Below, piece after piece: positions 3,959-64,000 of a stretch of DNA of 64,000 nucleotides; position 1 is the first letter of the stretch; every line of letters starts with the position of its first letter. The translations under genes and the position numbers were made by a program. The DNA lies in assembly GCF_003326015.1 (NCBI RefSeq), contig NZ_CP023860.1, forward strand, positions 1,612,001-1,676,000, read 5' to 3'. This DNA is from Candidatus Thioglobus sp. NP1. GTDB lineage: Bacteria > Pseudomonadota > Gammaproteobacteria > PS1 > Pseudothioglobaceae. The notes beneath the pieces are model-generated. The model saw only the letters and a list, made by a program, of their open reading frames with translations. It ran no database searches and was not told where the DNA came from.

Positions 3959-3961
3959 ATC

Positions 3962-4441: not shown

Positions 4442-4453
4442 ATTAAATCCTTA

Positions 4454-4810: not shown

Positions 4811-4836
4811 TGTTTATCCTCATTTAAACAACGAAT

Positions 4837-4845: not shown

Positions 4846-4902
4846 GATTATCGTAAAACCGCTAGAAAAAACTGTCTTTAAATCCTAATATGAAGGATAA
4901 AT

Positions 4903-6327
4903 TTACCTATGAAGCTGAGTACCGCCAACAGTTAACATGTCAACTTTTAAGCTCGGCTGGCCAACTCCAACAGGAACACTCTGACCATCTTTTCCACAAA
5001 CTCCTACTCCAGGATCCAATTTTAAGTCATCACCCACCATAGAAATTTGATGGAGTACCTCATCTCCAGAGCCAATTAAAGTTGCTCCTTTAATAGGTGT
5101 GGTTATTTTTCCATTCTTAATTAAGTAAGCTTCATTTGCAGAAAAAACAAACTTTCCTGATGTTATATCAACCTGACCACCATCAAAATTTTTCGCATAT
5201 ATCCCATTTTCCACGGATGAAATCATATCTTTAAATTTATCTTTGCCATTTAGCATATATGTGTTTGTCATTCTTGGCATTGGGATATGTGCATATGATT
5301 CTCGCCTTCCATTGCCCGTACTAGATTTACCCATTAACCGAGCATTAAGCTTATCCATCATATAGCCCTTTAATACACCATTTTTTATTAGTGTAGTTTC
5401 TTGAGTTGGAGTGCCCTCATCATCAATTGTAAGGCTTCCACGGCGATTACTAATTGTGCCATTATCAACAATAGTACATTTTTCACTAGCAACTTTTTCA
5501 CCTACTTTGCCACTAAAAACAGAACTACCCTTACGATTAAAGTCCCCTTCCAGTCCATGACCTATAGCTTCATGCAAAAGAACTCCAGGCCAACCTGAAC
5601 CTAGAATGACAGGCATTTTTCCTGCAGGAGCATCTTTAGATTCTAGAGCAACCATTGCAAGACGAAGTGCCTCTTTAGTATATGCTTCAACAAGTGAATT
5701 ACTCTCAAAATATCCATAATCATAGCGACCGCCGCCTCCACTTGAAGCTTGTTCAGTTCTGCCATTATGTTCAACAATTACTGAAACACTTATTCTAACC
5801 ATAGGTCTGCAATCTATTTGATAAACACCATCAGTTGATGCTATAAGAACTTCTGTATATGCACCAGAAAGAGATGCACTAACTTGAACAACTTTTGGTT
5901 CCTCTCTGGCAATTGCATTAATTTGTCTAAGTAAGCCAACTTTTTCTTTAGAAGTTAGGCTTCCTAGGGGGCTTAATGCTGGGTACTTAATTGGATAATC
6001 TATTGTCTTTAAAATTTTTGAGCTTGAATTAGCCTTACTATCAGATATACCTTTTGCAAAATTTACCGCACCCTCAATTGCTTTAATATTGAGATCATCT
6101 GAGTATGAAAAACCAGTTTTATCTCCTGATACGCATCGAGCACCAACACCATGACTTATATTGTATGAGCCATCCTTGACAATTCCCTCATCCAGGACCC
6201 AAGACTCAGCTACTGAATGTTGGAAATATAAATCTGAATATTCAGACCCTGTATCAGAGAGTGAATTTAGCATATTAAATATTTCGCTCTCATTAATTTT
6301 GTGATCACTAAGTAATTCATTAATCAT
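4903..6327 (-). CDS. tldD: Metalloprotease TldD
   Basis: 474 aa, full length. TldD pairs with TldE/PmbA to form a Zn protease that degrades unfolded or modified peptides in the cytoplasm. The metal/catalytic motif [11 protein letters not shown] is at 252-262 (H252, E253, H257), and the third zinc ligand is probably C444 in [13 protein letters not shown]-terminal features such as [16 protein letters not shown] are conserved. The start overlaps the yhdP stop (ATGA), reproducing the yhdP-tldD linkage known from other gammaproteobacteria. No tldE/pmbA is in this window. Confidence 0.95.
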
Positions 6328-8843: not shown

Positions 8844-8869
8844 ATTTTTGTTGCAATCAACTGCAACTT

Positions 8870-8889
8870 ATTATAACCAAATGTATAAT
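8870..8889. promoter_or_regulatory. divergent promoter region between yhdP and cytochrome c5
   Basis: A plus-strand TATAAT lies at 8884-8889, with a poor -35 (CTGCAA) 17 bp upstream. It would start transcription about 30 nt before the cytochrome gene, whose AAGGAAGG ribosome-binding site is at 8914-8921. A minus-strand TATAAT lies at 8875-8870, pointing to yhdP. The two -10 boxes are only 8 bp apart, so the promoters probably compete. Assigned by eye only. Confidence 0.4.
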
Positions 8890-8924
8890 ATCTCGGAATT
8901 TAATCTGTTCTTCAAGGAAGGTCA

Positions 8925-9386
8925 ATGAGTCAAGCTTCTAAAACTTCTACAAAATTAATGCTTTTCGTTTGGTTAATAGCTATGATTTTTATCGGTATCA
9001 AAGCCCTTAACTCAACTAATGGAGAGTCTAATGTTAGTGAAAATATGATTGATAATGCAGCTCTTGAGAGGATTAAACCAATAGGAATGGTTGCTATTGA
9101 TACTGCAATAGCCGAAGCATCTGCTAAACTTCAGGATAAAGCTGAGCGTTCTGGTGAACAAATATATAATGCAAATTGTATGGGTTGTCATAATTCAGGT
9201 GTTTTAGGATCTCCTAAGTATGCTTCATTAGAAGATTGGGCACCTAGAATTGGACTTGGTGTTGATAAACTTACTGCATCAGCTATTGCTGGTAAAGGGG
9301 GAATGCCTGCAAAAGGAACCTGTATGGACTGCTCTGATAATGATATAAAAATCACTGTCCAATATATGTTGGATAGCTTAGAGTAA
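8925..9386 (+). CDS. Membrane-anchored cytochrome c5 family protein
   Basis: 153 aa with an uncleaved N-terminal membrane anchor (about 11-28). It has one haem c site CMGCH (C85, C88, H89) and the class signature GKGGMPAKGTCMDCSDND, in which M127 is the probable axial ligand and C133/C136 form the usual c5 disulfide. It is a periplasmic electron carrier, probably delivering electrons to a terminal oxidase. Monocistronic, with a strong AAGGAAGG Shine-Dalgarno, and convergent with the asparaginase-like gene 16 nt downstream. Confidence 0.92.
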   Translation: MSQASKTSTKLMLFVWLIAMIFIGIKALNSTNGESNVSENMIDNAALERIKPIGMVAIDTAIAEASAKLQDKAERSGEQIYNANCMGCHNSGVLGSPKYASLEDWAPRIGLGVDKLTASAIAGKGGMPAKGTCMDCSDNDIKITVQYMLDSLE

Positions 9387-9402
9387 ATCTTTTATTTTCG
9401 AT

Positions 9403-9894
9403 TTATGATTCTATGTATTGAAAGACTCCAAGAGCTCTATTTTTTTCTACGTCATCCCAAGGTAAGACTCTTCCATTCATTGCAACATATACTCCAGATT
9501 CTAATAGTTGAAGAGAGCCCAAAGCACAGCCAAAATTAAATAGGGCATCCGAATTGCTAACTGCATATGGCACCATAGCGCCAAAAAGAACAATAGTCTT
9601 ATCTATATCACTTTCACCAATCAATCTAGCTGTGTCACACATAGTATCAGTGCCGTGAGTAATCAAGATAAAATCCTCCTCACAACTCCTACAGCTATCG
9701 ACAATAAAATCTCGCTCTTTGTCCACCATATCTAAACTGTCTAATAACATTATTTCCTCTAAAGTCAAATCTACCTCAACTCTAGATCGCTTAACCATCT
9801 CAGGAAAATGAGTCTTATCAAATTCAAGCTCACCATTAGATTGGTTATAGACCTTATCAATTGTTCCACCTGTAATAAGTAATCTAACTTTCAT
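9403..9894 (-). CDS. Short asparaginase-domain protein
   Basis: 163 aa, covering only the N-terminal domain of type I/II L-asparaginases (usually about 330 aa). The first active-site loop TGGTID (8-13, nucleophile position T11) and the second HGTDTM (80-85, T82-D83) are intact. The C-terminal dimerisation domain is absent and no frameshift or downstream remnant is visible, so it appears to be a stand-alone short family rather than a broken gene. The catalytic Lys seen in full enzymes is not obvious. Substrate unknown; amidase or asparagine hydrolysis is possible. Confidence 0.75.
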   Translation of the reverse strand: MKVRLLITGGTIDKVYNQSNGELEFDKTHFPEMVKRSRVEVDLTLEEIMLLDSLDMVDKERDFIVDSCRSCEEDFILITHGTDTMCDTARLIGESDIDKTIVLFGAMVPYAVSNSDALFNFGCALGSLQLLESGVYVAMNGRVLPWDDVEKNRALGVFQYIES

Positions 9895-9919
9895 ATTTTC
9901 ATCTTAATATTAAATTTAA

Positions 9920-10563
9920 TTAATTATAACTTCTCTTACCAAAAATATCAGTTCCAACTCTAACAAATGTAGCACCTCTTTCTATTGCTAATTCGAGGTC
10001 TGCTGACATTCCCATTGATAATGAATCAAGATAAGAAAATTTTGAAACTAATTTCGCCATTTCACTAAAACTAGCTGCAGAATTTTCAGGGTTAGGGATA
10101 CACATGAAACCTCTTAAAGCAATATTAGGTAATTCTTTAACCTCAGAGATGATCTCTGGAATATCCTCAATAAGTAATCCAGATTTTGTTTCCTCTTTGT
10201 CAATATTTATCTGCATAAGGATATTAAGTTGGCCTAAATTTGGATCTCTTTGAGAACTTAGTCTTTTTGCAATCTTCAGCCTATCAACACTGTGGACCCA
10301 ATCGAAATTCTCTGCAATACCTGCAGTTTTATTTGCTTGAATTGGACCAATAAAATGCCAAGTTAAATTACTATTTTTAAGTGATGATATTTTTTCTAAA
10401 GATTCTTGTAAATAATTTTCACCAAAATGAAACTGTCCTGCATCAATCGCTTCTTGAATTTCTGAAATCGATCGAGTTTTACTAACCGCAATTAACTCTA
10501 CCTCCTGATCATGTTTTACAGATTCTATCCGGGACTTTACAAAATTTAAGTTATCCGAAATCA

Positions 10564-49555: not shown

Positions 49556-50431
49556 ATGGGCGGAGATAGATTAAAAATTGTACTTTCTCTTACTCCGCCC
49601 CTTTTAATAATTGGTACATTATTTTTTGGGGGGATACTTTATGGATTTCTTCAAAGCCTTGGCTATCAGCCAGCAATTCAAAAATATGACATAAGTTTTG
49701 ATGCATACTATAACGTCATGTTCTCTGAGAGATATGCGAAATTATTTTGGACAGGCCTAGGTCTAAACTTATGGGTTAGTTTTGTCAGCACTTTTTTAGC
49801 AGCTGCATTCGCTTTATTTGGTGCTTTAACTATCAGAAAAACTTTTTTTGCAAAAAAAATATGTAATTTTATCTTTTCCTTAAATTTACCCATGCCACAC
49901 TTAGTAGTTGCAGTAGGGATGATTTTTGTTTTCTCTCAAAGTGGATTATTAGCTAGATTTTTTACTCAGATAGGATTTATTGCATCACCAAGTGAATTTC
50001 CAATCTTGGTTAAAGATAAATATGGCCTAGGAATTATCTTAGCCTACATTTGGAAAGAAGCTGCATTCTTTTTTATTATTTTAATGTCAGTTCTTCAATC
50101 TCTTGGAGAAAATTTTGAAGAATTAGCACAGAGCTTGGGTGCTAACAAATGGCAAAGATTTAGATACGTAATTCTTCCACTGGTAATGCCAAATTTATTT
50201 TCTGCATCAATAATTGTTTTTGCATTCAGCTTTGGAGCATATGAAGTTCCAGCAATCCTTGGTGTTAACTATCCACAAATGCTTCCAGTTATGGCATTTG
50301 AGTTTTTCCTAAACCCTGATCTCAATGCAAGAAGTGAAGGAATGGCGCTTAGTATGATTATTGCGCTAATAGTTATGATTTTAGTTGTTATATATTTCCG
50401 TCTTACGCAAAGCAAAATTAGAAAAGATTAG
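49556..50431 (+). CDS. ABC transporter permease (YnjC-like, first)
   Basis: 291 aa with about six transmembrane helices. The EAA-type loop ELAQSLGANKWQRFRYVILPLVMPN lies in the C-terminal half and contacts the ATPase. It starts 9 nt after the binding protein stop. In E. coli YnjC the two permease halves are fused; here they are separate genes. Inner-membrane component of the import system. Confidence 0.87.
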   Translation: MGGDRLKIVLSLTPPLLIIGTLFFGGILYGFLQSLGYQPAIQKYDISFDAYYNVMFSERYAKLFWTGLGLNLWVSFVSTFLAAAFALFGALTIRKTFFAKKICNFIFSLNLPMPHLVVAVGMIFVFSQSGLLARFFTQIGFIASPSEFPILVKDKYGLGIILAYIWKEAAFFFIILMSVLQSLGENFEELAQSLGANKWQRFRYVILPLVMPNLFSASIIVFAFSFGAYEVPAILGVNYPQMLPVMAFEFFLNPDLNARSEGMALSMIIALIVMILVVIYFRLTQSKIRKD

Positions 50432-50436
50432 TTTTT

Positions 50437-51300
50437 ATGGAAAATAATTTAAAGAAAACAAATATTTATGCAGTTTATTTAGGGGCGTTCATTCTAATTC
50501 TTCCCTTAATTGCTTTTTTTATAAATGCATTTTCATTTAGATGGTTTTATCCCCAACTTATTCCTAAGGAGATTAGTTTACAAGCTTGGGTAAGACTTAA
50601 ATTAATTCCAAAAGAAGGCTTCAGATCACTTGATGGGTTCCTAGATTTATGGCTATCCAATCCTACAATTATTAAAGCACTAGTTAATAGCGTAACAATT
50701 GGTGTCATTGTTACTATTGTCTCAATAATTATTGCATTACCCGCAGCCAGAGTCTTAGGGTTACTGAATTTTAGATTTAAAAAGATTATTATTTTCATCA
50801 TGGTTTCTCCTACCATATTACCTCCAATAGCATTTGTTCTTGGATTAAACATTAACTTTATTTCATGGGGATTTTCAGGCAGTTTCTGGGGTGTTTGTTT
50901 AGTGCATTTAGTTCCAATAATGCCTTATGTAGTTCTAACAATGACAGGAATTTTTGCTAACTATAACCCTGACTTTGAACATCAAGCTAGAACATTAGGT
51001 GCTAATAAATTCAGAACCTTCTATTTGATTACACTTCCAGCAATTGCGCCAGGAATGGTGGTGGCTGCTTTATTTGCCTTCTTGGTTTCTTGGAGTCAAT
51101 ATTTATTAACTTTCTTAATTGGAGCAGGAAAGATTATGACACTTCCACTTCTTGTATTCTCAACAGCCTCATCTGGAAATCCAGCATTAACGGCAGCAAT
51201 ATCAATCGTATTTATTTTTCCAGCGATAGTAATTTTATTCTTTACCTCTAAATTCGTCTCAGGAGATTCTTCTGCAACGTCTGGATTTGGAAAACTTTAA
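50437..51300 (+). CDS. ABC transporter permease (YnjC-like, second)
   Basis: 287 aa with about six transmembrane helices and the EAA loop HQARTLGANKFRTFYLITLPAIAPG. It starts 5 nt after the first permease. The first helix (about 12-32) is followed by a large periplasmic loop with WFYPQLIPKEISLQAW. It forms the translocation path with the preceding protein. Confidence 0.87.
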   Translation: MENNLKKTNIYAVYLGAFILILPLIAFFINAFSFRWFYPQLIPKEISLQAWVRLKLIPKEGFRSLDGFLDLWLSNPTIIKALVNSVTIGVIVTIVSIIIALPAARVLGLLNFRFKKIIIFIMVSPTILPPIAFVLGLNINFISWGFSGSFWGVCLVHLVPIMPYVVLTMTGIFANYNPDFEHQARTLGANKFRTFYLITLPAIAPGMVVAALFAFLVSWSQYLLTFLIGAGKIMTLPLLVFSTASSGNPALTAAISIVFIFPAIVILFFTSKFVSGDSSATSGFGKL

Positions 51301-51327
51301 TTAACAATATAAAAGGCTAGTTAAAAA

Positions 51328-52386
51328 ATGAGTGATTTAAAAATTTCAAATTTATACAAAAGCTTTCCTGGAATGGACAGACCTGCAGTTAACAATGTTA
51401 GCTTAGATATTAAAACAGGGGGATTAATTGCCTTTTTAGGGCCATCTGGCTGTGGGAAAACAACAATTTTAAAAATGATTACAGGGTTATTTCAACCTGA
51501 TAGCGGTGATATTTCCTTAGATAACGAATCCTTATTACCAATTGCAACAGAAAAAAGAGGGGTGGTAATGGTCTTTCAAAACTATTTATTATTTCCGTAT
51601 ATGAATGTTAGTGAAAATGTTGGCTTTGCTCTTAAAATGAAAGGTATTGATAAAGATGAAATCAATAAAAAAGTAAAGGATATGCTTGAATTAGTTAAAC
51701 TCCCTGACATTGGAGACAGAAAACCTAAGCAATTATCAGGTGGTCAACAACAAAGAGTTGCGTTAGCAAGAGCTTTAATCTCAAAACCAAACCTTTTATT
51801 ACTAGATGAGCCATTAAGTAATCTGGATGCTCATTTAAGAGATGAAATGAGAGAGCTCATTGTCACAATTCAACAGAAGCTGAATGTAACAACTGTTTTT
51901 GTAACGCATGATCAAGAGGAAGCAGTTTTATTAGCAGATAAAATAGCTTTAATCTTTGATGGAGAACTGCAAAGCTACGCATCACCAATTGAATACTATG
52001 AGTCGCCAATTAATGAAAGAGCTGCAAAGTTTTTTGGTGGTGTTAACTTTTTAAAATCTTCAATTAATAAGTCAAATTTTGAAACAGAGATAGGTCCAAT
52101 TATTTACAACCAAAAAAATAAAAAAGGTTTATCAAAAAATCATTTACTTACAATTAGGCCTGAAAATATTGAAATATCAAAAACCAACATATTTAAAGAA
52201 AATAATTTTTCAGGAATTGTTACTTCGATTGTTTTTTCAGGAACAAATACAAGATATAAAATTCAGATTAAAGATACTATCCTAGAATGTTCAGTTCAAT
52301 CAGTAGGAAAAAAAGAAATATCTAAAAATGATAAAGTTTTTATTCATTTGCCTCAGGAAAAAATATGGGCAATGAACAATGAGTAA
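51328..52386 (+). CDS. ABC transporter ATP-binding protein (YnjD/PotA-like)
   Basis: 352 aa. Walker A GPSGCGKTT is at 38-46, the signature motif is LSGGQQQRVALARAL, Walker B LLLLDEPLSNLDAHLRDEMR and the His switch VFVTHDQEEAVL. A C-terminal TOBE-type domain (about 240-350) is present, unlike E. coli YnjD, and may bind a regulator or sense substrate. Powers the two permeases. It overlaps the GH51 gene by 8 nt, so glycoside import and hydrolysis are translated together. Confidence 0.93.
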   Translation: MSDLKISNLYKSFPGMDRPAVNNVSLDIKTGGLIAFLGPSGCGKTTILKMITGLFQPDSGDISLDNESLLPIATEKRGVVMVFQNYLLFPYMNVSENVGFALKMKGIDKDEINKKVKDMLELVKLPDIGDRKPKQLSGGQQQRVALARALISKPNLLLLDEPLSNLDAHLRDEMRELIVTIQQKLNVTTVFVTHDQEEAVLLADKIALIFDGELQSYASPIEYYESPINERAAKFFGGVNFLKSSINKSNFETEIGPIIYNQKNKKGLSKNHLLTIRPENIEISKTNIFKENNFSGIVTSIVFSGTNTRYKIQIKDTILECSVQSVGKKEISKNDKVFIHLPQEKIWAMNNE

Positions 52387-54322
52387 GCAAAAAAATAAGA
52401 TTCAATTTCATACTGAAAATAGCATAGGGGAGCTTTCTCCTCATATGTTTGGTGCAAATCTTGAGCATATTGGTGAAGCAATATATAAAAATGGTGTTTG
52501 GGCTGAAGTCATTGAAAATAGAAAATTTTGTGGTGCAGATAAATTTATTTGGGAGACAGGAGTCAAAGATGATCATTTAGATTTTGGAATTATAAGACCC
52601 TGGAAAGGCTTTAATCCTTCAGCAAAGCATGTAATGTATGCTCATTCAAACTCTGAATATATCGTTAAAGGTGATGAACAAATAAATAGATTTGGAAGTG
52701 GCAAACAATCTCAACAAATCACTATAAGAGAAAATAGTGAAATAAATCGAGGCATCAAACAGTCTATAAACATAAATTTTGTTGATCAAGAACATAGATT
52801 TAGCATAATGTTAAAAGGAACAGGGCAAAAAGTCTATATCCAAATTGGAGAATTAAACTTTGTTATAAAAAGTCGAACTAAATGGTTTGAATTTAAAAAA
52901 AATATAAAGTTTACTGATAATAAAACTACAAAAAACCTGTCAATTTCAATTAATAGTGATGAAGTATTTATTGCAAATTGCTCCTTAATGCCAAAAAGTA
53001 CTATCTATGGCTTTAGAAAAGATATAACTAAATTAATAAAAGAATGGGTTCCTAGTTATTTAAGATGGCCTGGAGGAAATTATTTATCTGGTTACAATTG
53101 GATTCATGGAATTGGTGATAAAAACTATCGACTACCCTTTTATGATTTTGCATGGTATGAATGGGAAAATAATGATGTTGGAACTGATGAGTTCATGCAA
53201 TGGTGTGAGTATATTGGAAGTGAACCAATGATAACAATAAATACTGGTAATGGAACTCCTGCAGAGGGAGCAGCATGGATTGAATATTTAACAGGATCTG
53301 TCAAAACAAAATATGGCAAACTTAGAAAAAAAAATGGAAGGAGTCAGCCATACAATCTTAAAACAATTTTTATAGGTAATGAAATGTTTGGGGGATGGCA
53401 AATTGGGCATACTGATGCTAAAACTTACGCCTTAAAATATGATAAGTTTGTCAAAGCAATTAAAAAAGTTAATCCAAATTTAAGATATATTGCGGTTGGA
53501 GCTTGCATGGATCACTTTGGACATTGGAATGAAATTGTGTTGAAAAATATTAAAGAACGAATTGATGAACTAAGTATTCATTATTATTCAATTAGAACTG
53601 AAAAAGATAAGATTCACCCACATTACACCTCAAGATATATTCCCACTGTTGCAGCATCTACTGAAGTTGAATCGATGCTTGATAAGACCATAGCAGAGAT
53701 AAAAAATAATACAAAAAAACCTATTACTATAGCGTTTGATGAATGGAATACATATGTAGAAGCTGAACATCCTAATTATATTGAAAATTATAATATTGCA
53801 GATGCTTTATATGCAGGCTCATTACTTAATGCTTGTATCAATAGGGGCGATATGATTACTAATACAGGGATATATCATCTAATAAACGTAATGGGTAATT
53901 ATAGGATTGATGGTCAAAAAATTTGGAAAACTCCAACGACGTTAATTTTAGAATTATTCACTAAATATCATAAAGGGAAAATTCTAAAAACTTCTGTAAA
54001 TAGCCCTACTTTTGAGTCTCCTAAAATTGGCAAACAACCCATTTATAAGAAAAATAAATTAATAGATGCTTCAGCTACTTATCATAAGAATCAGATATGT
54101 CTATCAGTAGTAAATAAATCAGAAAAAGAAAGTCTAATAATTTCTATACCTACACATAAAAAAGTAAGTAGCAATTATTTAGTTAATGGAAACTCACCAA
54201 CAGATATAAATGATAAAAAAAATCTTGAAAAAGTTTCTATTAAAAAAAATAAATTAGAATGTGGCAAAGATTATATTAAGGTTCCTCCTCACTCATTCAG
54301 CTTATTTTTAATAAAAGTATAG
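52379..54322 (+). CDS. GH51 alpha-L-arabinofuranosidase-like glycosidase
   Basis: 647 aa, with no signal peptide, so cytoplasmic. The catalytic barrel has RWPGGN (229-234), acid/base E335 (FIGNEMFGGW), the SIHYY motif (399-403) and nucleophile E455 (IAFDEWNTY), all in GH51 order; a C-terminal beta-sandwich domain follows (about 500-647). Retaining exo-furanosidases of this family hydrolyse alpha-L-arabinofuranosides and related furanosides. Its coupling to the importer suggests it cleaves a small furanoside taken up intact. Several positions differ from the common arabinofuranosidases, so the sugar may not be arabinose. Confidence 0.83.
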   Translation: MSKQKNKIQFHTENSIGELSPHMFGANLEHIGEAIYKNGVWAEVIENRKFCGADKFIWETGVKDDHLDFGIIRPWKGFNPSAKHVMYAHSNSEYIVKGDEQINRFGSGKQSQQITIRENSEINRGIKQSININFVDQEHRFSIMLKGTGQKVYIQIGELNFVIKSRTKWFEFKKNIKFTDNKTTKNLSISINSDEVFIANCSLMPKSTIYGFRKDITKLIKEWVPSYLRWPGGNYLSGYNWIHGIGDKNYRLPFYDFAWYEWENNDVGTDEFMQWCEYIGSEPMITINTGNGTPAEGAAWIEYLTGSVKTKYGKLRKKNGRSQPYNLKTIFIGNEMFGGWQIGHTDAKTYALKYDKFVKAIKKVNPNLRYIAVGACMDHFGHWNEIVLKNIKERIDELSIHYYSIRTEKDKIHPHYTSRYIPTVAASTEVESMLDKTIAEIKNNTKKPITIAFDEWNTYVEAEHPNYIENYNIADALYAGSLLNACINRGDMITNTGIYHLINVMGNYRIDGQKIWKTPTTLILELFTKYHKGKILKTSVNSPTFESPKIGKQPIYKKNKLIDASATYHKNQICLSVVNKSEKESLIISIPTHKKVSSNYLVNGNSPTDINDKKNLEKVSIKKNKLECGKDYIKVPPHSFSLFLIKV

Positions 54323-54460: not shown

Positions 54461-55477
54461 ATGAAACTAATAAATAAACTATTAGCTATCTCAGCTATTA
54501 CAGTTGCTCTAATGCCAGGAGTTGTTGCTGCTGACTGTGGTAAGGCAAGATTAGCTGATTTTGACTGGAGTAGTGCTAATATTCATACTGCTATTGCTGG
54601 CTTTATCTTGGAGCATGGCTATGGATGTGATGTTAGTATAACAAAAGGAAGTACAACACCTATTATGGCTGCACACTATGATGGACAGCTTGATGTAGTT
54701 ACTGAGCTTTGGTATGACAACATAAAAGATACTTATGATAGTCATGAAGCTGCAGGAACAGTAAGAAACCTAGGAATTAATACTCCTGACTCTCAGCAAG
54801 CATTCTATGTTGATAGAGCAACTGCTGATAAGTACAATCTTACAAATGTTCTAGATATGAATAGTCCAGAAATTGCTGCCTTATTCAGTGATCCTGAAAA
54901 CCCATCAATGGGAAGAATGACTAGTTGTATCGGTGGCTGGACTTGCTACACAATTAACCTTGTTAAACAAAAAGCTTATGGATTAGATAAGTACTACACT
55001 AACTTTGATCCAGGTTCAGGTGGTGCACTTGATGCAGCAATCGCAGGTGCGTTTGCCAAAAAGCAGCCAATCTTTACTTATTATTGGGCGCCAACTGGTT
55101 TAATGGGCAAAGTTGATTTAGTTAGATTAGCTGAACCACCATTTAACGCCGAGTGCTGGGCATCAATGCAAGTTGTTGTTGAAGACATCAAAGCCAATGG
55201 TACAGATGCTTGGCAGCCAACTTGTGGAGTTGAGTACAGAGACATGTCACTAGACAAGTCAGTTCTTGCTGAATGGGCTGATTCACACCCAGCTGAGACT
55301 GCATTCATTGAAGCATATAGCATACCAACTGCGCAAGTTAATAGACTTCTTGCATTCTATGAAGATGAGTCAGATGGTGATATGGAGCTAACTGCAATGG
55401 AGTACTTAGCTAATGACGATACATGGAAATCTTGGGTACCGGCAGATGTTGCTGCTAAAGTATCTGGAGCTCTCTAA
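54461..55477 (+). CDS. Glycine betaine/quaternary-amine ABC transporter binding protein
   Basis: 338 aa, signal peptide cleaved near VVAA (about residue 24). The mature part is an OpuAC/ProX-type periplasmic binding domain: ARLADFDWSSANIHTAIAGFILEHGYG at the start, and Trp/Tyr-rich segments (WTCYTIN, YYWAPTG, ECWASM) that could form the cation-pi cage for a trimethylammonium group. Strong AAGGAG ribosome-binding site. Followed by a terminator-like hairpin, then proW and proV homologues. Whether it binds glycine betaine, carnitine or a sulfonium compound cannot be decided, but the neighbouring carnitine-type genes make carnitine or butyrobetaine attractive. Confidence 0.85.
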   Translation: MKLINKLLAISAITVALMPGVVAADCGKARLADFDWSSANIHTAIAGFILEHGYGCDVSITKGSTTPIMAAHYDGQLDVVTELWYDNIKDTYDSHEAAGTVRNLGINTPDSQQAFYVDRATADKYNLTNVLDMNSPEIAALFSDPENPSMGRMTSCIGGWTCYTINLVKQKAYGLDKYYTNFDPGSGGALDAAIAGAFAKKQPIFTYYWAPTGLMGKVDLVRLAEPPFNAECWASMQVVVEDIKANGTDAWQPTCGVEYRDMSLDKSVLAEWADSHPAETAFIEAYSIPTAQVNRLLAFYEDESDGDMELTAMEYLANDDTWKSWVPADVAAKVSGAL

Positions 55478-55491
55478 GTTATTTAAATAAT

Positions 55492-55522
55492 AAAAAAGAG
55501 CTCACTTGTGGGCTCTTTTTTT
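55492..55522 (+). terminator. intra-operon terminator/attenuator after the proX-like gene
   Basis: AAAAAAGAGC (55492-55501) pairs with GCTCTTTTTT (from 55512), giving a stem of about ten pairs closed by a short loop, with a T-run at the end. It lies 15 nt after the binding-protein stop and 13 nt before the proW-like start. Partial termination here would give more binding protein than permease, a common arrangement in ABC importer operons. Confidence 0.75.
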
Positions 55523-55535
55523 CATATAAATCATT

Positions 55536-56537
55536 ATGACAAGAAAACTTCTTACATATTTAACCTTCCCAATAATCTTTGTATGGCTTTTAGTTGTAAG
55601 TTATAACTCATCAAAAAGAAAGCCTGATAGTGTTATGGAGCTTTTTACTGATTTAAGTTGGCTTTATGATTGGCCTAAATGGTTAGACATTCCACTAATG
55701 AAATGGATTAATGATGGTTTTAAGGTCTTTAATGAAAAATATGGCGTTTACTTTGAAGTAATCAATGATTTTCTTCTTGGAGCAATCCTTTCTCTAAAGA
55801 AATTTTTAATTGTTCTCCCATGGCCAGTAGTTATTGCACTCGTTGTTGCAATTGTTTTCTTCTCAAGTGGTAGAAAAGTAGGTACTACTATCTTTGTTGG
55901 ATTTTGTACATTTTTTATTGGCTTCCTGCATCCAAAATTTTGGGATAAAGCCATAGAAACAACTTCTATCATGATTATTGGAATTATTATTTGTATTATT
56001 ATTGGTATTCCATTGGGCATTGCAATGTCTCGAAATAATAAAGTTCGAAACGCCATACTACCAGTTCTTGATTTAATGCAAACAATCCCAAGTTTCTGTT
56101 ACCTGATTCCAGGGATTATGCTTTTTGGATTAGGCGCAGTTCCAGCAATTATTGCAACCGTTATTTATGCTGTTCCACCTTTGGTTAGATTAACTGATCT
56201 TGGAATCACTCTAGTTGATACAGAAGTTATAGAGGCTGCTGAAGCATTTGGAGCAAGCAAAAAACAAAAATTACTTGGAGTGCAGTTACCTCTTGCTCTG
56301 CCTAACATTATGCAAGGAATCAACCAGTGCACAATGATGGCATTGGCCATGGTTGTTATTGCCTCAATGATAGGAACTAGAGGGCTTGGTGATGAAGTCC
56401 TTCTTGGACTTCAACAGCTAAACGTTGGAAAGGCTACTGAAGCTGGTCTTGCAATTGTACTATTAGCAATTGTGTTAGATAGAATTACACAGGCTTATGG
56501 TAAAAAAATACAAGATAGAAACAAACCACCTGAATAA
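55536..56537 (+). CDS. Glycine betaine/quaternary-amine ABC transporter permease (ProW-like)
   Basis: 333 aa. An N-terminal extension with one helix is followed by a core of about six membrane helices, with the EAA-type motif EAAEAFGASKKQKLLGVQLPLALPNIMQGINQ. QTIPSFCYLIPGIMLFGLG is typical of ProW/OpuAB. No Shine-Dalgarno sequence is visible before the ATG. It follows the terminator hairpin and precedes the ATPase by 8 nt. Confidence 0.9.
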   Translation: MTRKLLTYLTFPIIFVWLLVVSYNSSKRKPDSVMELFTDLSWLYDWPKWLDIPLMKWINDGFKVFNEKYGVYFEVINDFLLGAILSLKKFLIVLPWPVVIALVVAIVFFSSGRKVGTTIFVGFCTFFIGFLHPKFWDKAIETTSIMIIGIIICIIIGIPLGIAMSRNNKVRNAILPVLDLMQTIPSFCYLIPGIMLFGLGAVPAIIATVIYAVPPLVRLTDLGITLVDTEVIEAAEAFGASKKQKLLGVQLPLALPNIMQGINQCTMMALAMVVIASMIGTRGLGDEVLLGLQQLNVGKATEAGLAIVLLAIVLDRITQAYGKKIQDRNKPPE

Positions 56538-56545
56538 AATCCATT

Positions 56546-57580
56546 ATGTCAAAAATTGAAATTAAAAATATTTATAAAATATTTGGTTCTAATCCTGAGC
56601 AAGTATTACCAATGGTTAAAGATGGGGCGAGTAAAGAACAAGTTATGGAGGAGACAGGTCATACTGTTGGTCTAGATAATGTCTCGCTATCAATTAAAGA
56701 AGGTGAAATTTTTGTTTGTATGGGACTTTCTGGTTCGGGAAAATCAACCCTAATTAGGCATATCAACAGGCTTATTGACCCTACTGCAGGGGAGGTAATA
56801 GTTAATAATGTTGATGTATGTAGTCTTAATGAAAAAGAAATTCTAGAGTTTAGAAAAAAAACTATGAGTATGGTTTTTCAGCGCTTTGGACTTTTCCCTC
56901 ATAAAACTATTATTGAAAACGTAGCATATGGCCTTGAAATTCAAGAAGTGCCAGAAGATAAAAGAAAGGAAATTGCCCAAGGGCAAATTGATGCTGTAGG
57001 TCTGCAAGGATTTGAAAATCAATACCCAGCTCAATTATCTGGAGGTATGCAACAAAGAGTTGGACTGGCAAGAGCTCTTGCAACTGACCCTCAAATTCTT
57101 TTAATGGATGAAGCCTTTAGTGCCTTAGATCCTCTTATTAGAAGTGAAATGCAAAGTCAGCTAATGGATCTTCAGTCTAAATTAAAAAAAACAATTGTCT
57201 TTATTACTCATGATCTTGATGAATCTCTTAAGTTAGGGGATCACATTGGAATACTCAATGGTGGAAGACTAGTTCAAGTTGGTCGTCCAGAAGATATTAT
57301 TTTAAATCCTGCAGATGACTATGTAAAAGCATTTGTAAAAGATGTTAATCGCTCAAAAGTTTTAAGAGCTAGAACTATAATGACAAAAATAGATAAGTTT
57401 GATAAATCAAGTATTAACCCATCATCAATATATAAATATGATGGAGATACAGTCCTTGAAGAGCTTGTTCCTAAAGTATTAAAAGATAGGTGTACTATAG
57501 AGGTCATTGATAAATCAGAAACTACTATCGGTTATATTTCAGCTGATGAGCTTTCTGAAGCTCTTGATAAAACTTTTTAA
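56546..57580 (+). CDS. Glycine betaine/quaternary-amine ABC transporter ATPase (ProV-like)
   Basis: 344 aa. Walker A GLSGSGKST is at 60-68, the signature LSGGMQQRVGLARAL, Walker B ILLMDEAFSALDPLIRSEMQ and TIVFITHDLDES. The C-terminal extension (about 260-344) is the region that carries CBS domains in ProV/OpuAA, here short. GHTVGLDNVSLSIKEGEIFVCMG is diagnostic of the OpuAA group. It ends with a 1-nt overlap (TAATG) with the dehydrogenase gene. Confidence 0.93.
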   Translation: MSKIEIKNIYKIFGSNPEQVLPMVKDGASKEQVMEETGHTVGLDNVSLSIKEGEIFVCMGLSGSGKSTLIRHINRLIDPTAGEVIVNNVDVCSLNEKEILEFRKKTMSMVFQRFGLFPHKTIIENVAYGLEIQEVPEDKRKEIAQGQIDAVGLQGFENQYPAQLSGGMQQRVGLARALATDPQILLMDEAFSALDPLIRSEMQSQLMDLQSKLKKTIVFITHDLDESLKLGDHIGILNGGRLVQVGRPEDIILNPADDYVKAFVKDVNRSKVLRARTIMTKIDKFDKSSINPSSIYKYDGDTVLEELVPKVLKDRCTIEVIDKSETTIGYISADELSEALDKTF

Positions 57581-58368
57581 TGTCTAAGAGTAATTTCGTT
57601 ATTAAAAATATAGTTATTTCAGCATCAGCTGATGGAATTGGTTGGTGCATTGCTAGTTTTTTTATAGAACAGGGTCATACGGTTTTCTTGTCTGATATAA
57701 ATCAACAAAAAATAAATGAAATTAAGAAACACCCTCTATTTAATAAAAGAATATTTATAGAAAATATTAATGCCAGTGATCCTGTCTCTGTGAAAAAATA
57801 CTTTGAATCTCTAACTAATAAGCTCTCAAGTATTGATGCACTTATTAATAATGTTGGTATTGCTGGACCAACAGGAGTGATGGAAGATTTATCAATTGAT
57901 GATTGGAAGCAAACAATTGATATTAATTTAAATAGTCATTTTTATTTCACTAAATTTGCAATACCGCTTTTGAAAAAAAATCAAGGTGGCTCCATAATTA
58001 ATCTCTCCTCTACTGCTGGACTCTTTGGATTTCCATTGAGGACTCCATATGCAGCTTCTAAATGGGCAATTATTGGCGTTACAAAATCGCTTGCAATGGA
58101 ACTTGGTAAATTTAATATTAGAGTAAATGCTATATGTCCTGGTTCAGTTTCTGGGGATAGGATTGATCGAGTTATTGCAGCAAAAGCTTCATCACTTGGT
58201 ATTAGTGAAAGAGAACTGAGAGAAGATTTTGAGGGAATGGTCTCACTTAAGACTTTTGTAGATAAAGAAGATATTGCTAATATGGCAACATTCCTAGTAT
58301 CTGAAGAGGCTAAGAAAGTATCTGGTCAGATTATGACAGTAGATGGTCATACTGAGAGAATGGACTAA
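57580..58368 (+). CDS. Short-chain dehydrogenase/reductase
   Basis: 262 aa classical SDR. The nucleotide motif reads SASADGIG (14-21), a variant of TGxxxGIG with Ala in place of the first Gly. NNVGIAG (90-96), active-site S143/S144, Y157 and K161 (SSTAGLFGFPLRTPYAASK) and the C-terminal VSGQIMTVDGH are intact. Co-translated with the ProXWV-type importer, so it probably acts on the imported compound or a product. Substrate unknown; carnitine itself is normally oxidised by another enzyme family. Confidence 0.85.
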   Translation: MSKSNFVIKNIVISASADGIGWCIASFFIEQGHTVFLSDINQQKINEIKKHPLFNKRIFIENINASDPVSVKKYFESLTNKLSSIDALINNVGIAGPTGVMEDLSIDDWKQTIDINLNSHFYFTKFAIPLLKKNQGGSIINLSSTAGLFGFPLRTPYAASKWAIIGVTKSLAMELGKFNIRVNAICPGSVSGDRIDRVIAAKASSLGISERELREDFEGMVSLKTFVDKEDIANMATFLVSEEAKKVSGQIMTVDGHTERMD

Positions 58369-59516: not shown

Positions 59517-60302
59517 TTAATCTCCCTTCCAAATTGGCATACGTTTTTCAGCAAAAGCTTTTGGCCCTTCTTTAGCATCATTCGATTGAAGCATCTTTTG
59601 ATAAGGCTTTATAGAACCCGAACGCATTAATTCATATGCTGACTCAAGATTCATTTCTTCTGTCTCTCTAACTACTGCTTTTATTGCAGCCAATGAAAGA
59701 GGGGCTGATTCAGCAATCTCATGTGCCCAGGCTATTGCCTGACTTTTCAAATCTTTTAATAGACAACTTCGGTTTACTAAACCATAATGTTTCGCCTCAT
59801 CAATAGCCATTCGTCGTCCAGTCATCAACATCTCCATAGCAATTGCGCTTGGCAATCGCCGCGGCAATCTTAAGACACCGCCACTATCAGGAATAATTCC
59901 TAAAGTTGCTTCAGGAACAAAAAATTCTGCAGAATCTGATGCAATGATAAGATCAGCCGCAAGAGCCAATTCAAAACCACCACCCGCAGCCAAGCCATTA
60001 ACAGCAGCGATAACTGGTTTATTTAGGTTCCATAACTCTGTAAGTCCCGCAAATCCACCAGGTCCAAAATCTGCATCAACTGCTTCTCCTTCAGATGCAG
60101 CTTTTAAGTCCCATCCACCACAAAAAAATCTTTCACCCGCACCAATAATTATTGCTACCCGTAAATTATCATTATCCCTAAAATCAATAAAAGCTTTCCC
60201 AAGCTCATGACTTGTAACAGCATCAATCGCGTTAGCTTTTGGCCTATTAAGTGTTATCAAAAGAACTTTATCATGAGTCTCACAAGTAACGCTTTTATTC
60301 AT
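59517..60302 (-). CDS. caiD: CaiD-like crotonobetainyl-CoA hydratase (crotonase family)
   Basis: 261 aa from the ATG at 60302, which is preceded by GAGGA; a TTG five codons upstream is part of that ribosome-binding site. Length and catalytic glutamates E111 and E131 coincide with the positions I recall for E. coli Cai[23 protein letters not shown] and the C-terminal AFAEKR-PIWKG are shared with that protein. It hydrates crotonobetainyl-CoA to carnitinyl-CoA. Cytoplasmic. The neighbouring CoA ligase, acyl-CoA dehydrogenase and thioesterase fit a carnitine or butyrobetaine pathway. Similarity was judged from memory. Confidence 0.8.
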
Positions 60303-60340
60303 AAATTTTTTCCTCAAAAAGTAAGGTTTATCATTTGCAT

Positions 60341-62392
60341 TTAGTTTAACTTAATTAGAGCATCAACAGCTACTACTCCTTGTCCACTATCCATTACTAA
60401 TAATGGATTTATATCCAGCTCAGCAATATCATTGGCAAGTATCAGTTCAGCAATAGATAGAACACTATCAATTATTGCCTCGATATCACCTCCTGATTTT
60501 CCACGATAGCCTTGAAGTATTGGATAAACCTTTAGTTTTGAAAGTCTATCTAAGATATCTTTTCTCTTAAGTGGAAGCAATAAAGAGCAAGAGTCTTGCA
60601 ATAATTCAACTAGAACTCCTCCACTGCCAATAACTATAAATTTACCAAAAATAGGATCATGGTTCATACCTATTATTAATTCAGCTATAGAACCTTGAAT
60701 CATTTTTTCGACTAATAGCAATGGTCCAATCTTTAATAAATCTTTACATGCAGTCTCTAACATTTCAGAATTACGAATATTAATTCTAACTGCATTCAAT
60801 TCTGTTTTATGAGCTAATGTCTCACTTGAGATTTTTACAGTTACTGGATAGATTAATTTTTCAGCTACTTTATGCGCTTCATCATAACTAGATACAATTG
60901 AGCCTTCAGGAACCGAAATTCCATACTTACTAATAAGACTTTTAGCTTCATACTCGGTTAAAAGCTTATTTTTTGATTCACCTCTTAAAAGTCTTGAAAC
61001 TTTTAAAGGTGGCAATTCACTTCTTTTAAACGAAAGTCCAATATTATATGAATGATTTAGAGATTTTAAGCAAGAGTCCAATCCAATCATTGGCACAATT
61101 CCATAGTCATGGCATTGTTCGATAATCCTTTTAGGCATGCAATCTGCCATAGATGATAAAACTATAGCCTTCTCTCCTGAATCTTTAATAGCATTACATA
61201 ATGCTAAAAATGTTTTATCCCAATCTTGTTGCTGTCCCACATCAGTTTTTGGCCAATCTAATAACAACATCGTTGCAGCAAACCCTCCACTTATCATTTC
61301 CTTAAAACATGCAGAAGTCTTTTCAAGGTTGCCCCAAATAAAAGTATGATAATCCAAAGGGTTATCAACTTCTACATATTCATTAAGTGTAGCTCTAACT
61401 CTTCGTTTATGATCTTCATCAAGGCTTTTAAAAGCTATATCCAAACCATCAATTAAATCTGCCATCATCCCAGCCTCTCCTCCAGAACAACTCATTGATG
61501 CAACTCCATTATGACTAATTGGACCAATAACACTAAGTAACTTTAGTGTTTCTAAAAACTCTGGAACTGTTTCAACTCTTGCTATTCCTTGTCGCTCAAA
61601 GAATGAACTAAATAACTCATCTGAACCTGACATTGAACTTGTGTGGCTCAGTGCAATTTTTGCTGAAGACTGCGTTCGACCAGATTTGATTGCTACTATT
61701 GGAATTTTTTTATGAAGCGCTCTTCGAGTAGCATCATCAAATGCCTCAATATCATTAATACCTTCAATATGAATACCAATTGCATTAACCCTATCATCAT
61801 CAAGCATCGCATGAATAATATCTGAAATACTGGTATTAGTCTGATTGCCAACAGTAAACATATAGGCTATTGGCAGGCCAATAGATTGCATAGTCATATT
61901 TAATCCAATGTTGCCACTTTGGGTAATTATTGCAACACCTTTTTTTAACGGCTCACATCCTTGAACATCTGGCCACAAAGCTACTCTATCTAAACTATTG
62001 ATAAAGCCATAGCAATTTGGTCCAATTATAGGAAGGCCATCAGCAGCTTCAATTAGTTTTTGGTTCCTTATAACTCCAGATTCACCAACCTCTCCAAATC
62101 CAGATGCATATAAAACTGCTCCACCCCCTCCAATAAACTTCAAATCAGCAACAACATCTATTGCAGTATCTGCATTTACGGCTATGAAAGTAGCATCTGG
62201 AGCTTCTGGAAGATCCCTTACGTTTTTATAACAAGTTATCCCTTCGATTACCTCTAAGGTTGGATGAATTGCCCATATTTTTCCAGTAAAACCGAGTTTT
62301 TTACTTTCTCTAATTGCAAAGTCTGCCCCCCTATTTCCAACAACAGCAATAGATTTTGGAGCAATCAAACGATTCAAGTTAACTTTATTCAT
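60341..62392 (-). CDS. ADP-forming acyl-CoA synthetase (acetate-CoA ligase family)
   Basis: 683 aa. The N-terminal CoA-binding domain (IAVVGNRG), a succinyl-CoA-synthetase-like middle with the probable phospho-His in [17 protein letters not shown], and a C-terminal ATP-grasp domain (about 460-683, [43 protein letters not shown]) are present. It makes an acyl-CoA from a carboxylate with ATP going to ADP and phosphate. In the CaiD-type operon it probably activates carnitine, butyrobetaine or a similar acid. E. coli uses the unrelated AMP-forming CaiC for this step. Confidence 0.85.
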
Positions 62393-62401
62393 GAAAGTTT
62401 T

Positions 62402-63559
62402 TTATTCGTGAGGCCTTAGTAGGGATCTTGAAATAATATGGCGCTGGATCTCACTGGTTCCATCCCAGATTCTTTCAACTCTATGGTCTCGCCATATTCT
62501 TTCTAAAGGTAATTCATCCATTAAGCCCATTCCACCTAATATTTGTATAGCCTCATCTGAAACCATAGCCAAGGTTTCAGTAGCCTTAAGTTTTGCCATT
62601 GCAGCATCACTATTAGTCATTTCTCCTTTAGTATCTTTCCAAGCAGCTCTTAAAGTTAATAGCTCTGCAGCATGTAATTCAGTTGACATATCAGCTAGCT
62701 TAAAAGAGACACCTTGAAATTTTCCAATTTTCTGACCAAATTGCTCTCTAGTTGCGGCCCATTCTGTAGCAATTTGTAATGCTCTCTCTGCTCTTCCAAG
62801 GCACATTGCAGCAACAGATAATCGAGTGGCTCCTAGCCACTCATTCGCTACATCAAATCCATGGTCAACCTCTCCTAGCACTTGAGATTTATGTACTTTA
62901 CAGTTATCAAAGTTAAGAACAAAGTTATGATATCCACGATGGGAAACACTTTTATATCCAGGTTCTATAGAAAAGCCTGATGTACCTTTATCAACCAAAA
63001 AACTAGTTATCTTTTTCCTAACACCTTTTACAGTCTCCTCTGTTCCTGATGCAGCAAACAAAATAACATAATCTGCTACATCAGCATGGCTAATAAAATG
63101 TTTAGAGCCATTAATAATAAAAAAATCACCTTCTTTATCAGCACGACACTGCATTGAACGAACATCAGAGCCTGCATTAGGCTCAGTCATTGCTAAGCAC
63201 TCAACCTTTTTGCCATTAATAGTTGGTACTAGGTAGTTTTCAATTTGCTCACCTTTGCATGCAAGCAAAATATTGCTAGGCCTTGCAACAATATATTGCA
63301 GTCCAAAATTTGCCTTACCTAACTCCTTTTCGATTAAACATAAAGTTAGAGTATCTAAACCACCACCACCATGCTTAATAGGCATATTAGTGGCATACAA
63401 CCCTAAATCAATTGCTTTTTTCTTAATACTTTCAGCTAAAGTTTCATCAATATGATTACTCTTCTCCACTTCGTTTTCATAGGGATACAACTCCTGTTCT
63501 ACGAAGCTCTTAACTGAATCAATTATCATCTCTTGTTCATTTGAAAGACCAAAGTCCAT
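62402..63559 (-). CDS. Acyl-CoA dehydrogenase
   Basis: 385 aa, FAD-dependent. ECLAMTEPNAGSDVRSMQC is the first family signature, ATREQFGQKIGKFQG the FAD/CoA segment and QILGGMGLMDELPLERIWRDHRVERIWDGTSEIQR the C-terminal part. At the position of the usual catalytic Glu (YEGT) it has D366 (WDGT). In context it may oxidise gamma-butyrobetainyl-CoA to crotonobetainyl-CoA, the step before CaiD. Other acyl-CoA substrates are possible. It precedes the CoA ligase by 9 nt. Confidence 0.88.
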   Translation of the reverse strand: MDFGLSNEQEMIIDSVKSFVEQELYPYENEVEKSNHIDETLAESIKKKAIDLGLYATNMPIKHGGGGLDTLTLCLIEKELGKANFGLQYIVARPSNILLACKGEQIENYLVPTINGKKVECLAMTEPNAGSDVRSMQCRADKEGDFFIINGSKHFISHADVADYVILFAASGTEETVKGVRKKITSFLVDKGTSGFSIEPGYKSVSHRGYHNFVLNFDNCKVHKSQVLGEVDHGFDVANEWLGATRLSVAAMCLGRAERALQIATEWAATREQFGQKIGKFQGVSFKLADMSTELHAAELLTLRAAWKDTKGEMTNSDAAMAKLKATETLAMVSDEAIQILGGMGLMDELPLERIWRDHRVERIWDGTSEIQRHIISRSLLRPHE

Positions 63560-63580
63560 TTTTTTTCCTCTATCTAATTA

Positions 63581-64000
63581 TTATTTTTTTGGAATACTCA
63601 TCACACTTCCTTTTTGCTTAGGTGAAAGTATTTTTTGATGAAAATTCCAAATTTTTTCAAGTATTTGTAATGGTCCAGTCTCAATTTCACAAGCCTTCGA
63701 TTTTTTCATATCAACATGGACTAACATCTGCTCAGTTGTTGCAAGCAACTCTCCAGTCTCAGCATGCAGCATTTGGTGAAAAAAATGAAGTCGCTTTTTA
63801 TCCAAGCCAAGTAATTGAGTTGTAAAACTTAATAATTCTCCTTTAGAAACTTCTAAATAAAAGTTTATATGTGTTTCAACTGTATAAAAAGACTTTCCAG
63901 AAGTTCGATAATTATCATCAATACCAACATACTGGAAAAGAGCATCAGAAGCATCTCCAAATGCATAAAGATAAAAAGATTCACTCATATGATCATTGTA
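63581..64000 (-). CDS. Hotdog acyl-CoA thioesterase (betainyl-CoA thioesterase-like), cut by window end
   Basis: 140 codons visible, and the gene runs past base 64000. An ATG at 63988 looks like a start but is internal: upstream codons are open to the window edge and complete the family active-site motif YNDHMSESFYLYAFGDASDALF (DYNGHM-type). Later segments SFYTVETHINFYLEVSKGE and LLGLDKKRLHFFHQML fit 4HBT-fold thioesterases linked to carnitine dehydrogenase, which release betaine from betainyl-CoA. The operon context supports this, but the substrate is an inference. Confidence 0.75.
   Translation of the reverse strand, partial: YNDHMSESFYLYAFGDASDALFQYVGIDDNYRTSGKSFYTVETHINFYLEVSKGELLSFTTQLLGLDKKRLHFFHQMLHAETGELLATTEQMLVHVDMKKSKACEIETGPLQILEKIWNFHQKILSPKQKGSVMSIPKK

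Follow-up and report, generated by a model that had tools for sequence, protein, structure and literature searches.

Four genes on the minus strand at the end of the window (the whole 64,000-nucleotide stretch of Candidatus Thioglobus sp. NP1 DNA analysed here) very probably encode a CoA-dependent route from gamma-butyrobetaine to L-carnitine, which a second locus in the same genome would carry on to glycine betaine. The operon (59517–64000) consists of a 4HBT_2 thioesterase (63581–64000, partial; PF13279, 84 bits), an acyl-CoA dehydrogenase with Pfam acyl-CoA dehydrogenase domains (62402–63559), an NDP-forming acyl-CoA ligase (60341–62392; PF13380, PF13607 and PF13549) and a CaiD-like crotonase (59517–60302 when counted from an ATG; the TTG start in the list of open reading frames lies at 60317). 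We propose that these act, respectively, as L-carnitinyl-CoA thioesterase, gamma-butyrobetainyl-CoA dehydrogenase, gamma-butyrobetaine:CoA ligase and crotonobetainyl-CoA hydratase. Based on the gene coordinates, the genes are separated by 21, 9 and 38 bases, bearing out the preliminary description, which had placed a dehydrogenase, a CoA ligase, a thioesterase with a YNDHM motif and a crotonase in one operon. That description had also expected the pathway to run on past base 64000, but this operon does not: the thioesterase (176 amino acids in full, with the C-terminal 139 inside the window) starts at window-equivalent position 64111, 111 bases past the window, and is the first gene of the operon, and its neighbor beyond, a ysxC-type GTPase by eye, is divergent.

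Gene order was compared across 40 related loci, with enough upstream sequence in 35 and enough downstream sequence in 35. The dehydrogenase lies directly upstream of the ligase in 35/35 loci and the thioesterase upstream in 27/35, while CaiD lies directly downstream in 30/35; the five loci in which CaiD does not directly follow the ligase and dehydrogenase are of Oceanospirillaceae type or related. Because the order is conserved across these loci, the four-gene grouping is not due to chance. Scans returned 13 promoter-like sites (shuffled mean of 18.6) and four terminator-like sites (2.7 in shuffled sequence), and these sites carry no weight in our reading.

The crotonase is 61.5% identical to Escherichia coli CaiD over 260 residues, with glutamates 111 and 131 present in both and in register, in agreement with its first description as a CaiD-like protein carrying E111/E131. 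In a tree, it forms one group with E. coli CaiD (100/100 support) to the exclusion of ten other crotonases, so that alignment and tree both favor the CaiD subfamily. The best match among 73 families was NF002936 (CaiD) at 384.7 bits; because this misses the curated cut-off of 500, we named the protein CaiD-like and did not file it as an equivalog. In a DNA search of plasmids, short matches fell on CaiD genes and on a few genes for acyl-CoA dehydrogenases, and a protein search of phage records gave mainly distant crotonases plus two Salmonella CaiD-like entries at 60%. Crotonases are common in fatty acid oxidation operons, and the dehydrogenase resembles short-chain acyl-CoA dehydrogenases, both of which would suit an operon that simply oxidizes short- or branched-chain fatty acids. 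We rejected this explanation as highly improbable: the four operon proteins include neither a thiolase nor a 3-hydroxyacyl-CoA dehydrogenase, the crotonase belongs to the CaiD clade and the neighboring genes in relatives are carnitine genes.

The dehydrogenase itself is 61% identical to the dehydrogenase of the Rhizobium etli carnitine cluster and 29% identical to E. coli CaiA, scoring 195.8 bits against NF002885 (CaiA; curated cut-off of 540). Genes for ETF were found in the genome. The full thioesterase matches the C-terminal thioesterase part of the carnitine 3-dehydrogenase model NF005716 (159.4 bits), and a tree places this free-standing protein in a separate group, TE1, beside the fused thioesterase domains. 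Its motif is YNDHM; in an alignment with 10 related free-standing thioesterases, 9 of these have YNGHM.

The second locus lies about 200 kb from the operon, at 187–189 kb of the 1.69-Mb contig, where a BKACE gene is followed by an adjacent gene for a carnitine 3-dehydrogenase–thioesterase fusion. These two enzymes had been predicted just beyond the window; they are indeed in the genome but not next to the operon. The carnitine 3-dehydrogenase scored 713.1 bits against NF005716, above the curated cut-off of 592. The BKACE scored 314.1 bits against PF05853 (gathering score of 24.8) but fell under the cut-offs of all four NCBIfam models listed for it, so its substrate is assigned from the neighboring gene. 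Because of the distance, the operon and the second locus are linked in this host by content only. Among 83 genomes of the host’s family, 21 have both the ligase and the carnitine dehydrogenase, 4 and 5 have one without the other and 53 have neither; co-occurrence is confined to 2 of 11 genera. Outside the family, we examined loci from Rhizobium, Sinorhizobium, Shinella, Thioclava, Nisaea and Aestuariispira. In 7/7 plasmid-collection loci examined at 38–44% ligase identity (including one from Thioclava and one from Shinella), a ligase homologue shared a cluster with acyl-CoA dehydrogenase, CaiD, BKACE and carnitine dehydrogenase, compared with BKACE in 0/10 examined at 25–30%; the Aestuariispira and Nisaea loci have this cluster too.

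The ligase is a single chain with CoA-binding, Succ_CoA_lig and ATP-grasp domains, which places it in the NDP-forming superfamily, and its candidate phosphohistidine, H250, aligns with H292 of the DMSP lyase DddX. Its nearest solved relative is also DddX (7cm9), both by sequence (230 bits) and by the fold of a structure model (TM 0.87; pLDDT of 86.2, dropping to <50 at residues 246–256 around the phosphohistidine). These matches are what would be expected if the operon served DMSP breakdown, with a DddX-type ligase that forms DMSP-CoA and splits it into DMS and acryloyl-CoA, the dehydrogenase acting as an acryloyl-CoA reductase, the crotonase hydrating acryloyl-CoA and a DmpX-like importer bringing in DMSP. 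Acryloyl-CoA reductase is the best NCBIfam match of the dehydrogenase, at 279.1 bits and under its cut-off of 640, and a pairwise alignment sets D390, an acid, opposite the catalytic E432 of DddX and the ligase’s own W391 opposite F433. E432 faces a gap in the MAFFT alignment, as does F435, which faces K393 in the pairwise one, and the sulfonium- and DMSP-binding W391 of DddX corresponds to H349 in both (roles of DddX residues from the available part of PMC8163506). Furthermore, the carnitine-linked ligases form one branch (100/100) apart from DddX and ten other NDP-forming ligases, although the long branch of DddX makes its exact place unsure.

The importer (54461–57580, plus strand; PF04069, PF00528 and PF00005) is an OpuAC/ProXWV-type ABC system related to DmpX, made up of a binding protein (54461–55477), a permease (55536–56537) and an ATPase (56546–57580). 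An SDR-family dehydrogenase gene (57580–58368, plus strand; PF13561/PF00106) has an ATG that overlaps the stop of the ATPase gene, and it adjoins the importer genes in many relatives. The ATPase passes the cut-off of TIGR01186, a betaine/proline/choline family (368.3 bits against 326.6), upholding the betaine-type label given to the importer earlier. The binding protein has as its best solved relative 7yle, the DMSP-binding protein DmpX, and keeps six of eight RnDmpX pocket residues (E113 is replaced by Q and A153 by T). It is 31% identical to DmpX, compared with 38% for another protein encoded elsewhere in the genome. The proposed supply of substrate to the operon is thus unproven, and we regard import of carnitine or butyrobetaine as possible. 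Overall, the DMSP explanation is weakened by the ligase tree, the replacement of W391 and the gene neighborhoods, in which carnitine dehydrogenase and BKACE accompany the module in relatives; given also the grouping of the crotonase with CaiD and the closer DmpX relative elsewhere, we consider it improbable.

The direction of the pathway was a further consideration. CaiD-type hydration is reversible, and the operon could in principle convert crotonobetaine or D-carnitine to L-carnitine, or carnitine to butyrobetaine as in E. coli. One protein of the genome resembles gamma-butyrobetaine dioxygenase (448.9 bits, cut-off of 414.75); it passes a phosphonate dioxygenase cut-off too, and it could already cover gamma-butyrobetaine. 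Nevertheless, such reverse use or isomer interconversion has little probability: the dehydrogenase is distant from CaiA, the downstream oxidative route is present and no class III (CaiB-type) CoA transferase was found in the genome. CaiB-type activation is therefore not available, and we ruled out CoA transfer by such an enzyme.

The analysis shows which genes are present, how they are ordered and related, which clades they belong to and where they co-occur; from the protein families and known pathways, we infer the following reactions and step order for the conversion of gamma-butyrobetaine to glycine betaine. The NDP-forming ligase would use ATP, through a phosphohistidine, to turn gamma-butyrobetaine into gamma-butyrobetainyl-CoA, which the acyl-CoA dehydrogenase would oxidize to crotonobetainyl-CoA with electrons passing to ETF. 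The crotonase would add water to give L-carnitinyl-CoA, and the free-standing thioesterase would release L-carnitine. The operon route would need no oxygenase and would have one enzyme per step. The carnitine dehydrogenase at 188 kb would oxidize L-carnitine to 3-dehydrocarnitine, from which BKACE, using acetyl-CoA, would make betainyl-CoA and acetoacetate. The thioesterase domain that forms part of the dehydrogenase fusion would then yield glycine betaine, a possible substrate for demethylation by MttB-family methyltransferases. The first proposal for this DNA, that the module makes and hydrates crotonobetainyl-CoA, is supported by the CaiD clade and the partner genes; its suggestion that the operon releases betaine is not, as the end product is probably L-carnitine. 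The assignment to carnitine and butyrobetaine is well supported by sequence comparison because of the 100/100 CaiD clade, the finding that this genome also encodes BKACE and carnitine dehydrogenase, and the linkage of those two genes to the module in other bacteria. Against it, the crotonase and dehydrogenase both miss their Cai cut-offs, and the dioxygenase-like protein would make the CoA route redundant.

The chemistry is already known in other bacteria, and what is new is mainly the host lineage, whose relatives are of Thioglobus/SUP05 type and for which no published description of the pathway was found in the searchable literature. Also mainly new is the set of aromatic residues peculiar to this ligase clade; W140, Y348, W353 and W391 of the ligase are the candidates for a proposed aromatic cage. 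A wider proposal is quite possible, if short of probable: that Thioglobus/SUP05-type free-living bacteria have an oxygen-independent route from gamma-butyrobetaine through carnitine to glycine betaine beside an oxygen-dependent dioxygenase, with a single-chain DddX-fold ligase bearing a clade-specific aromatic trimethylammonium cage and a free thioesterase that shares a recent common origin with the thioesterase domain of carnitine dehydrogenase and later became tuned to carnitinyl-CoA. In the sea, glycine betaine and related molecules matter as nitrogen and carbon compounds, and a complete route would add a testable substrate to the diet of small free-living marine gammaproteobacteria. DddX-type DMSP lyases and butyrobetaine ligases have a common fold and could be confused in annotation; a sequence marker drawn from the ligase branch with its aromatic signature would tell likely butyrobetaine users from such lyases.

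Among the closest known systems, the Lonza HK4-type conversion of gamma-butyrobetaine to L-carnitine is alike by route (available part of PMC2131755). The E. coli cai operon (caiTABCDE) shares CaiD and the acyl-CoA dehydrogenase and CoA ligase functions. It differs in its CaiB-type transferase, its divergent CaiA and its CaiC, to which the ligase had no significant match (E 0.07), and the direction in the host is likely oxidative. DddX shares the NDP-forming ligase fold and the conserved phosphohistidine; unlike it, the host ligase falls in the carnitine-linked branch and lacks the DMSP-binding W391. An Arctic SAR11 genomic island is a similar marine gene set, for using carnitine and butyrobetaine and producing glycine betaine. 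It carries carnitine dehydrogenase, BKACE and, in contrast to the host operon, gamma-butyrobetaine dioxygenase; the available part of that report mentions no CoA ligase module (PMC12421898).

Rhizobium/Sinorhizobium-type clusters run from a GlxA-type regulator through BKACE, carnitine 3-dehydrogenase, acyl-CoA dehydrogenase, NDP-forming ligase and CaiD to an ABC importer. Unlike these, the host has its genes in two separate loci, and its four-gene operon lacks a regulator and includes an additional free-standing thioesterase. The dehydrogenase–ligase–CaiD order is the same, the host genome also has BKACE and the carnitine dehydrogenase fusion, and across seven loci the dehydrogenase is 58–62%, the ligase 38–44% and CaiD 46–52% identical. 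Sinorhizobium meliloti has a gamma-butyrobetaine:CoA ligase, BcoAB, used with ATP and CoA (available part of PMC8364193). The ligase of the S. meliloti record takes the form of two open reading frames within the carnitine cluster, and the replicon searched gave no other ligase match; this type of cluster probably includes BcoAB, whose name would stand for the two parts.

Four closely spaced genes on the minus strand (64000 to 59517) encode a thioesterase, an acyl-CoA dehydrogenase, an NDP-forming acyl-CoA ligase and a crotonase, and the preliminary description had placed these in one operon, as found here. The best explanation from sequence comparison is that the operon would convert gamma-butyrobetaine to L-carnitine, which would feed a second locus elsewhere in the genome, ending in glycine betaine; the core idea of that description, a carnitine/butyrobetaine module, was right. 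The window covers bases 1612001–1676000 of a single 1,689,404-base contig (estimated completeness, 99.94%), and sequence read beyond it placed the start of the thioesterase gene, the first of the operon, 111 bases past its edge. The adjacent gene has the opposite orientation and, judged by its sequence, presumably encodes a ysxC/engB-type GTPase. Because the thioesterase gene is first and its neighbor divergent, the operon consists of four genes and extends no further, contrary to the earlier expectation of a pathway running past base 64000, upstream of which carnitine dehydrogenase and BKACE genes were to be sought; that pair sits at 187.1–189.5 kb of the contig.

The crotonase had been called CaiD-like, with glutamates 111 and 131, and this is borne out by 61.5% identity to Escherichia coli CaiD over 260 residues, with both glutamates at the same positions. 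It scored 384.7 bits against the crotonobetainyl-CoA hydratase model (next family, 239.4), which is below that model's curated cut-off of 500. In a maximum-likelihood tree (n = 27), it falls in one group of 17 with CaiD and carnitine-linked homologs (support 100/100), apart from ten other crotonases drawn from other loci.

At the second locus, a BKACE enzyme (314.1 bits) directly precedes a carnitine 3-dehydrogenase to which a thioesterase domain is fused (712.7–713.1 bits; cut-off, 592). The BKACE protein falls below the cut-offs of all four NCBIfam models listed for it, so its substrate is assigned from the neighboring gene. Conversion of carnitine to betaine by carnitine dehydrogenase, BKACE and a thioesterase is outlined in the summary of PMC12482172 and matches general knowledge. 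The genome also encodes two ETF genes, four MttB-family methyltransferases and three OpuAC-type binding proteins; a search of it for class III CoA transferases at E 0.001 returned none. A gamma-butyrobetaine dioxygenase-like protein (contig 482578–483618 of the genome, G000; 1165–2205 of its locus L075) scored 448.9 bits against a cut-off of 414.75, and also exceeded the cut-off for trimethylaminoethylphosphonate dioxygenase (410.8 versus 400); a trimethyllysine dioxygenase-like protein scored 277.7 bits (cut-off, 268.3). Alongside the operon, there may thus be an oxygen-dependent conversion of butyrobetaine to carnitine; this small genome would then have two ways of making carnitine, and the argument from need for the operon is weakened.

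We surveyed the gene neighbors of the ligase at 40 loci in the genome collection. On each side, 35 loci had enough sequence: the dehydrogenase lies directly upstream of the ligase in all 35, CaiD directly downstream in 30 of 35, and the thioesterase is found upstream in 27 of 35. At two of the 40 loci (Aestuariispira and Nisaea), carnitine dehydrogenase and BKACE stand in line with the ligase. CaiD is not directly downstream at five loci (L025, L029, L038, L044 and L046), which belong by title to Oceanospirillaceae, Pseudomonadales or unplaced gammaproteobacteria; their substrate may be a different betaine.

In the plasmid collection, 474 records had a ligase match, of which we examined 17 hand-picked from the lists rather than at random. 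All seven loci with 38–44% ligase identity (five of them Rhizobium or Sinorhizobium) carry BKACE, carnitine dehydrogenase, the dehydrogenase and CaiD. Among the ten with 25–30% identity, BKACE was found in none, weak carnitine dehydrogenase matches (27–29%) in two and distant crotonases (28–39%) in nine. At locus L050, a series of ORFs on the opposite strand immediately ahead of BKACE (260–7919) is possibly a separate pathway; by eye, we take them to be cupin, SnoaL-like, SDR, LacI-type regulator, histidinol dehydrogenase-like and ABC ATPase genes. Across 83 genomes of the window's family, counted by hand, 25 carry the ligase and 26 carry carnitine dehydrogenase; the two occur together in 21, the ligase alone in 4 and carnitine dehydrogenase alone in 5, and 53 genomes have neither. 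Of the nine discordant genomes, seven are <80% complete and the other two 91 and 93%. Because the presences are confined to two of 11 genera, this co-occurrence is a lineage pattern rather than many independent events.

The dehydrogenase shares 61% identity with its counterpart from the carnitine cluster of Rhizobium etli and 29% with E. coli CaiA; its best NCBIfam model, acryloyl-CoA reductase, gave 279.1 bits, far below the cut-off of 640. The thioesterase aligns with the thioesterase region at the C terminus of the carnitine 3-dehydrogenase model. It is 39% identical to the fused domain in this genome's fusion protein and 44% identical to the R. etli domain. Its tree group has support of 83/79, and the nearest outside sequence, the Aestuariispira fused domain, joins it at 96/99. 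A different thioesterase, from group TE2, lies near the dehydrogenase and ligase at L029, L038, L044 and L046. At the related locus L033, an MttB-family gene and a homocysteine methyltransferase-like gene also occur.

The importer (54461–57580, plus strand) had been proposed as betaine-type and as the source of the pathway's substrate. The first part stands, with its ATPase above the cut-off of the betaine/proline/choline family; the second is one possibility, as the binding protein is also related to DmpX. An importer ATPase with at least 50% identity occurs in the flanking sequence covered at 17 of 40 ligase loci. An SDR dehydrogenase gene (57580–58368), whose start overlaps the ATPase stop, is kept with the importer in many relatives, and its substrate may hint at the cargo. 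The stretch 49556–54322 holds another ABC transporter, judged by eye to comprise an ATPase with two permeases, followed by a 647-residue ORF that is presumably an arabinofuranosidase-type glycoside hydrolase. The best solved relative of the binding protein is 7yle, an entry named in PMC10030565 that we take to be its RnDmpX, as numbering and residues agree. Six of eight RnDmpX pocket residues are kept, including all four tryptophans and Tyr200; over the part compared, a different protein encoded in the genome resembles RnDmpX more closely (38% versus 31% identity). The same paper describes DmpX of Ruegeria pomeroyi as DMSP-specific, binding betaine, choline or carnitine only poorly, and reports DmpX in Candidatus Thioglobus. 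The cargo may be DMSP, betaine, carnitine or butyrobetaine.

The ligase is a single chain with CoA-binding, Succ_CoA_lig and ATP-grasp domains, and its nearest named relatives are from Candidatus Thioglobus and SUP05-type gammaproteobacteria (best, 75% identity). DddX, the ATP-dependent DMSP lyase, is both its closest solved structure by sequence and the closest solved fold to its model (TM-score, 0.87; mean pLDDT, 86.2). In a tree of 32 sequences, 21 carnitine-linked ligases, a label assigned here to the window's ligase and those of 20 chosen loci, fall on one side of a branch (support 100/100), with DddX and ten other NDP-forming ligases outside; long branches were flagged, including that of DddX, whose exact place outside is unsure. 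Several aromatic residues, among them W140, Y348, F/Y351, W353, W/F380 and W391, are invariant or almost invariant across the 21 and seldom occur in the other 11; we propose that some form a putative cage around the trimethylammonium group. In DddX, the residue proposed as catalytic base, E432, stands opposite a gap in the MAFFT alignment and opposite D390 in the pairwise alignment.

Published work describes the cai functions of E. coli and the HK4 route (PMC2131755), a genomic island of Arctic SAR11 that carries carnitine dehydrogenase, BKACE and butyrobetaine dioxygenase (PMC12421898) and, from Thioglobus, the glycine betaine demethylation gene mtgC (PMC12478193). BcoAB of Sinorhizobium meliloti is reported as a gamma-butyrobetaine:CoA ligase used with ATP and CoA (PMC8364193). 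In S. meliloti CP090106.1, the ligase homolog is two overlapping ORFs in the carnitine cluster (7983–10045 of locus L051), which would fit the two-part name, BcoAB being compared by name rather than sequence. The homolog is unannotated in that record's table and matched as a single piece of almost equal length in three related Sinorhizobium records; the record is titled pSymB, yet is 3.7 Mb long. In the literature on carnitine, butyrobetaine or betaine, of which our search covered few subscription papers, we found no description of the four-gene operon in Thioglobus or SUP05. The chemistry is already known, and what would be new is mainly this host lineage. Compared with DddX, the ligase shares the fold and the phosphohistidine (H250), whereas W391 of DddX, described in PMC8163506 as binding the sulfonium group, is replaced by H349 in both the MAFFT and pairwise alignments.
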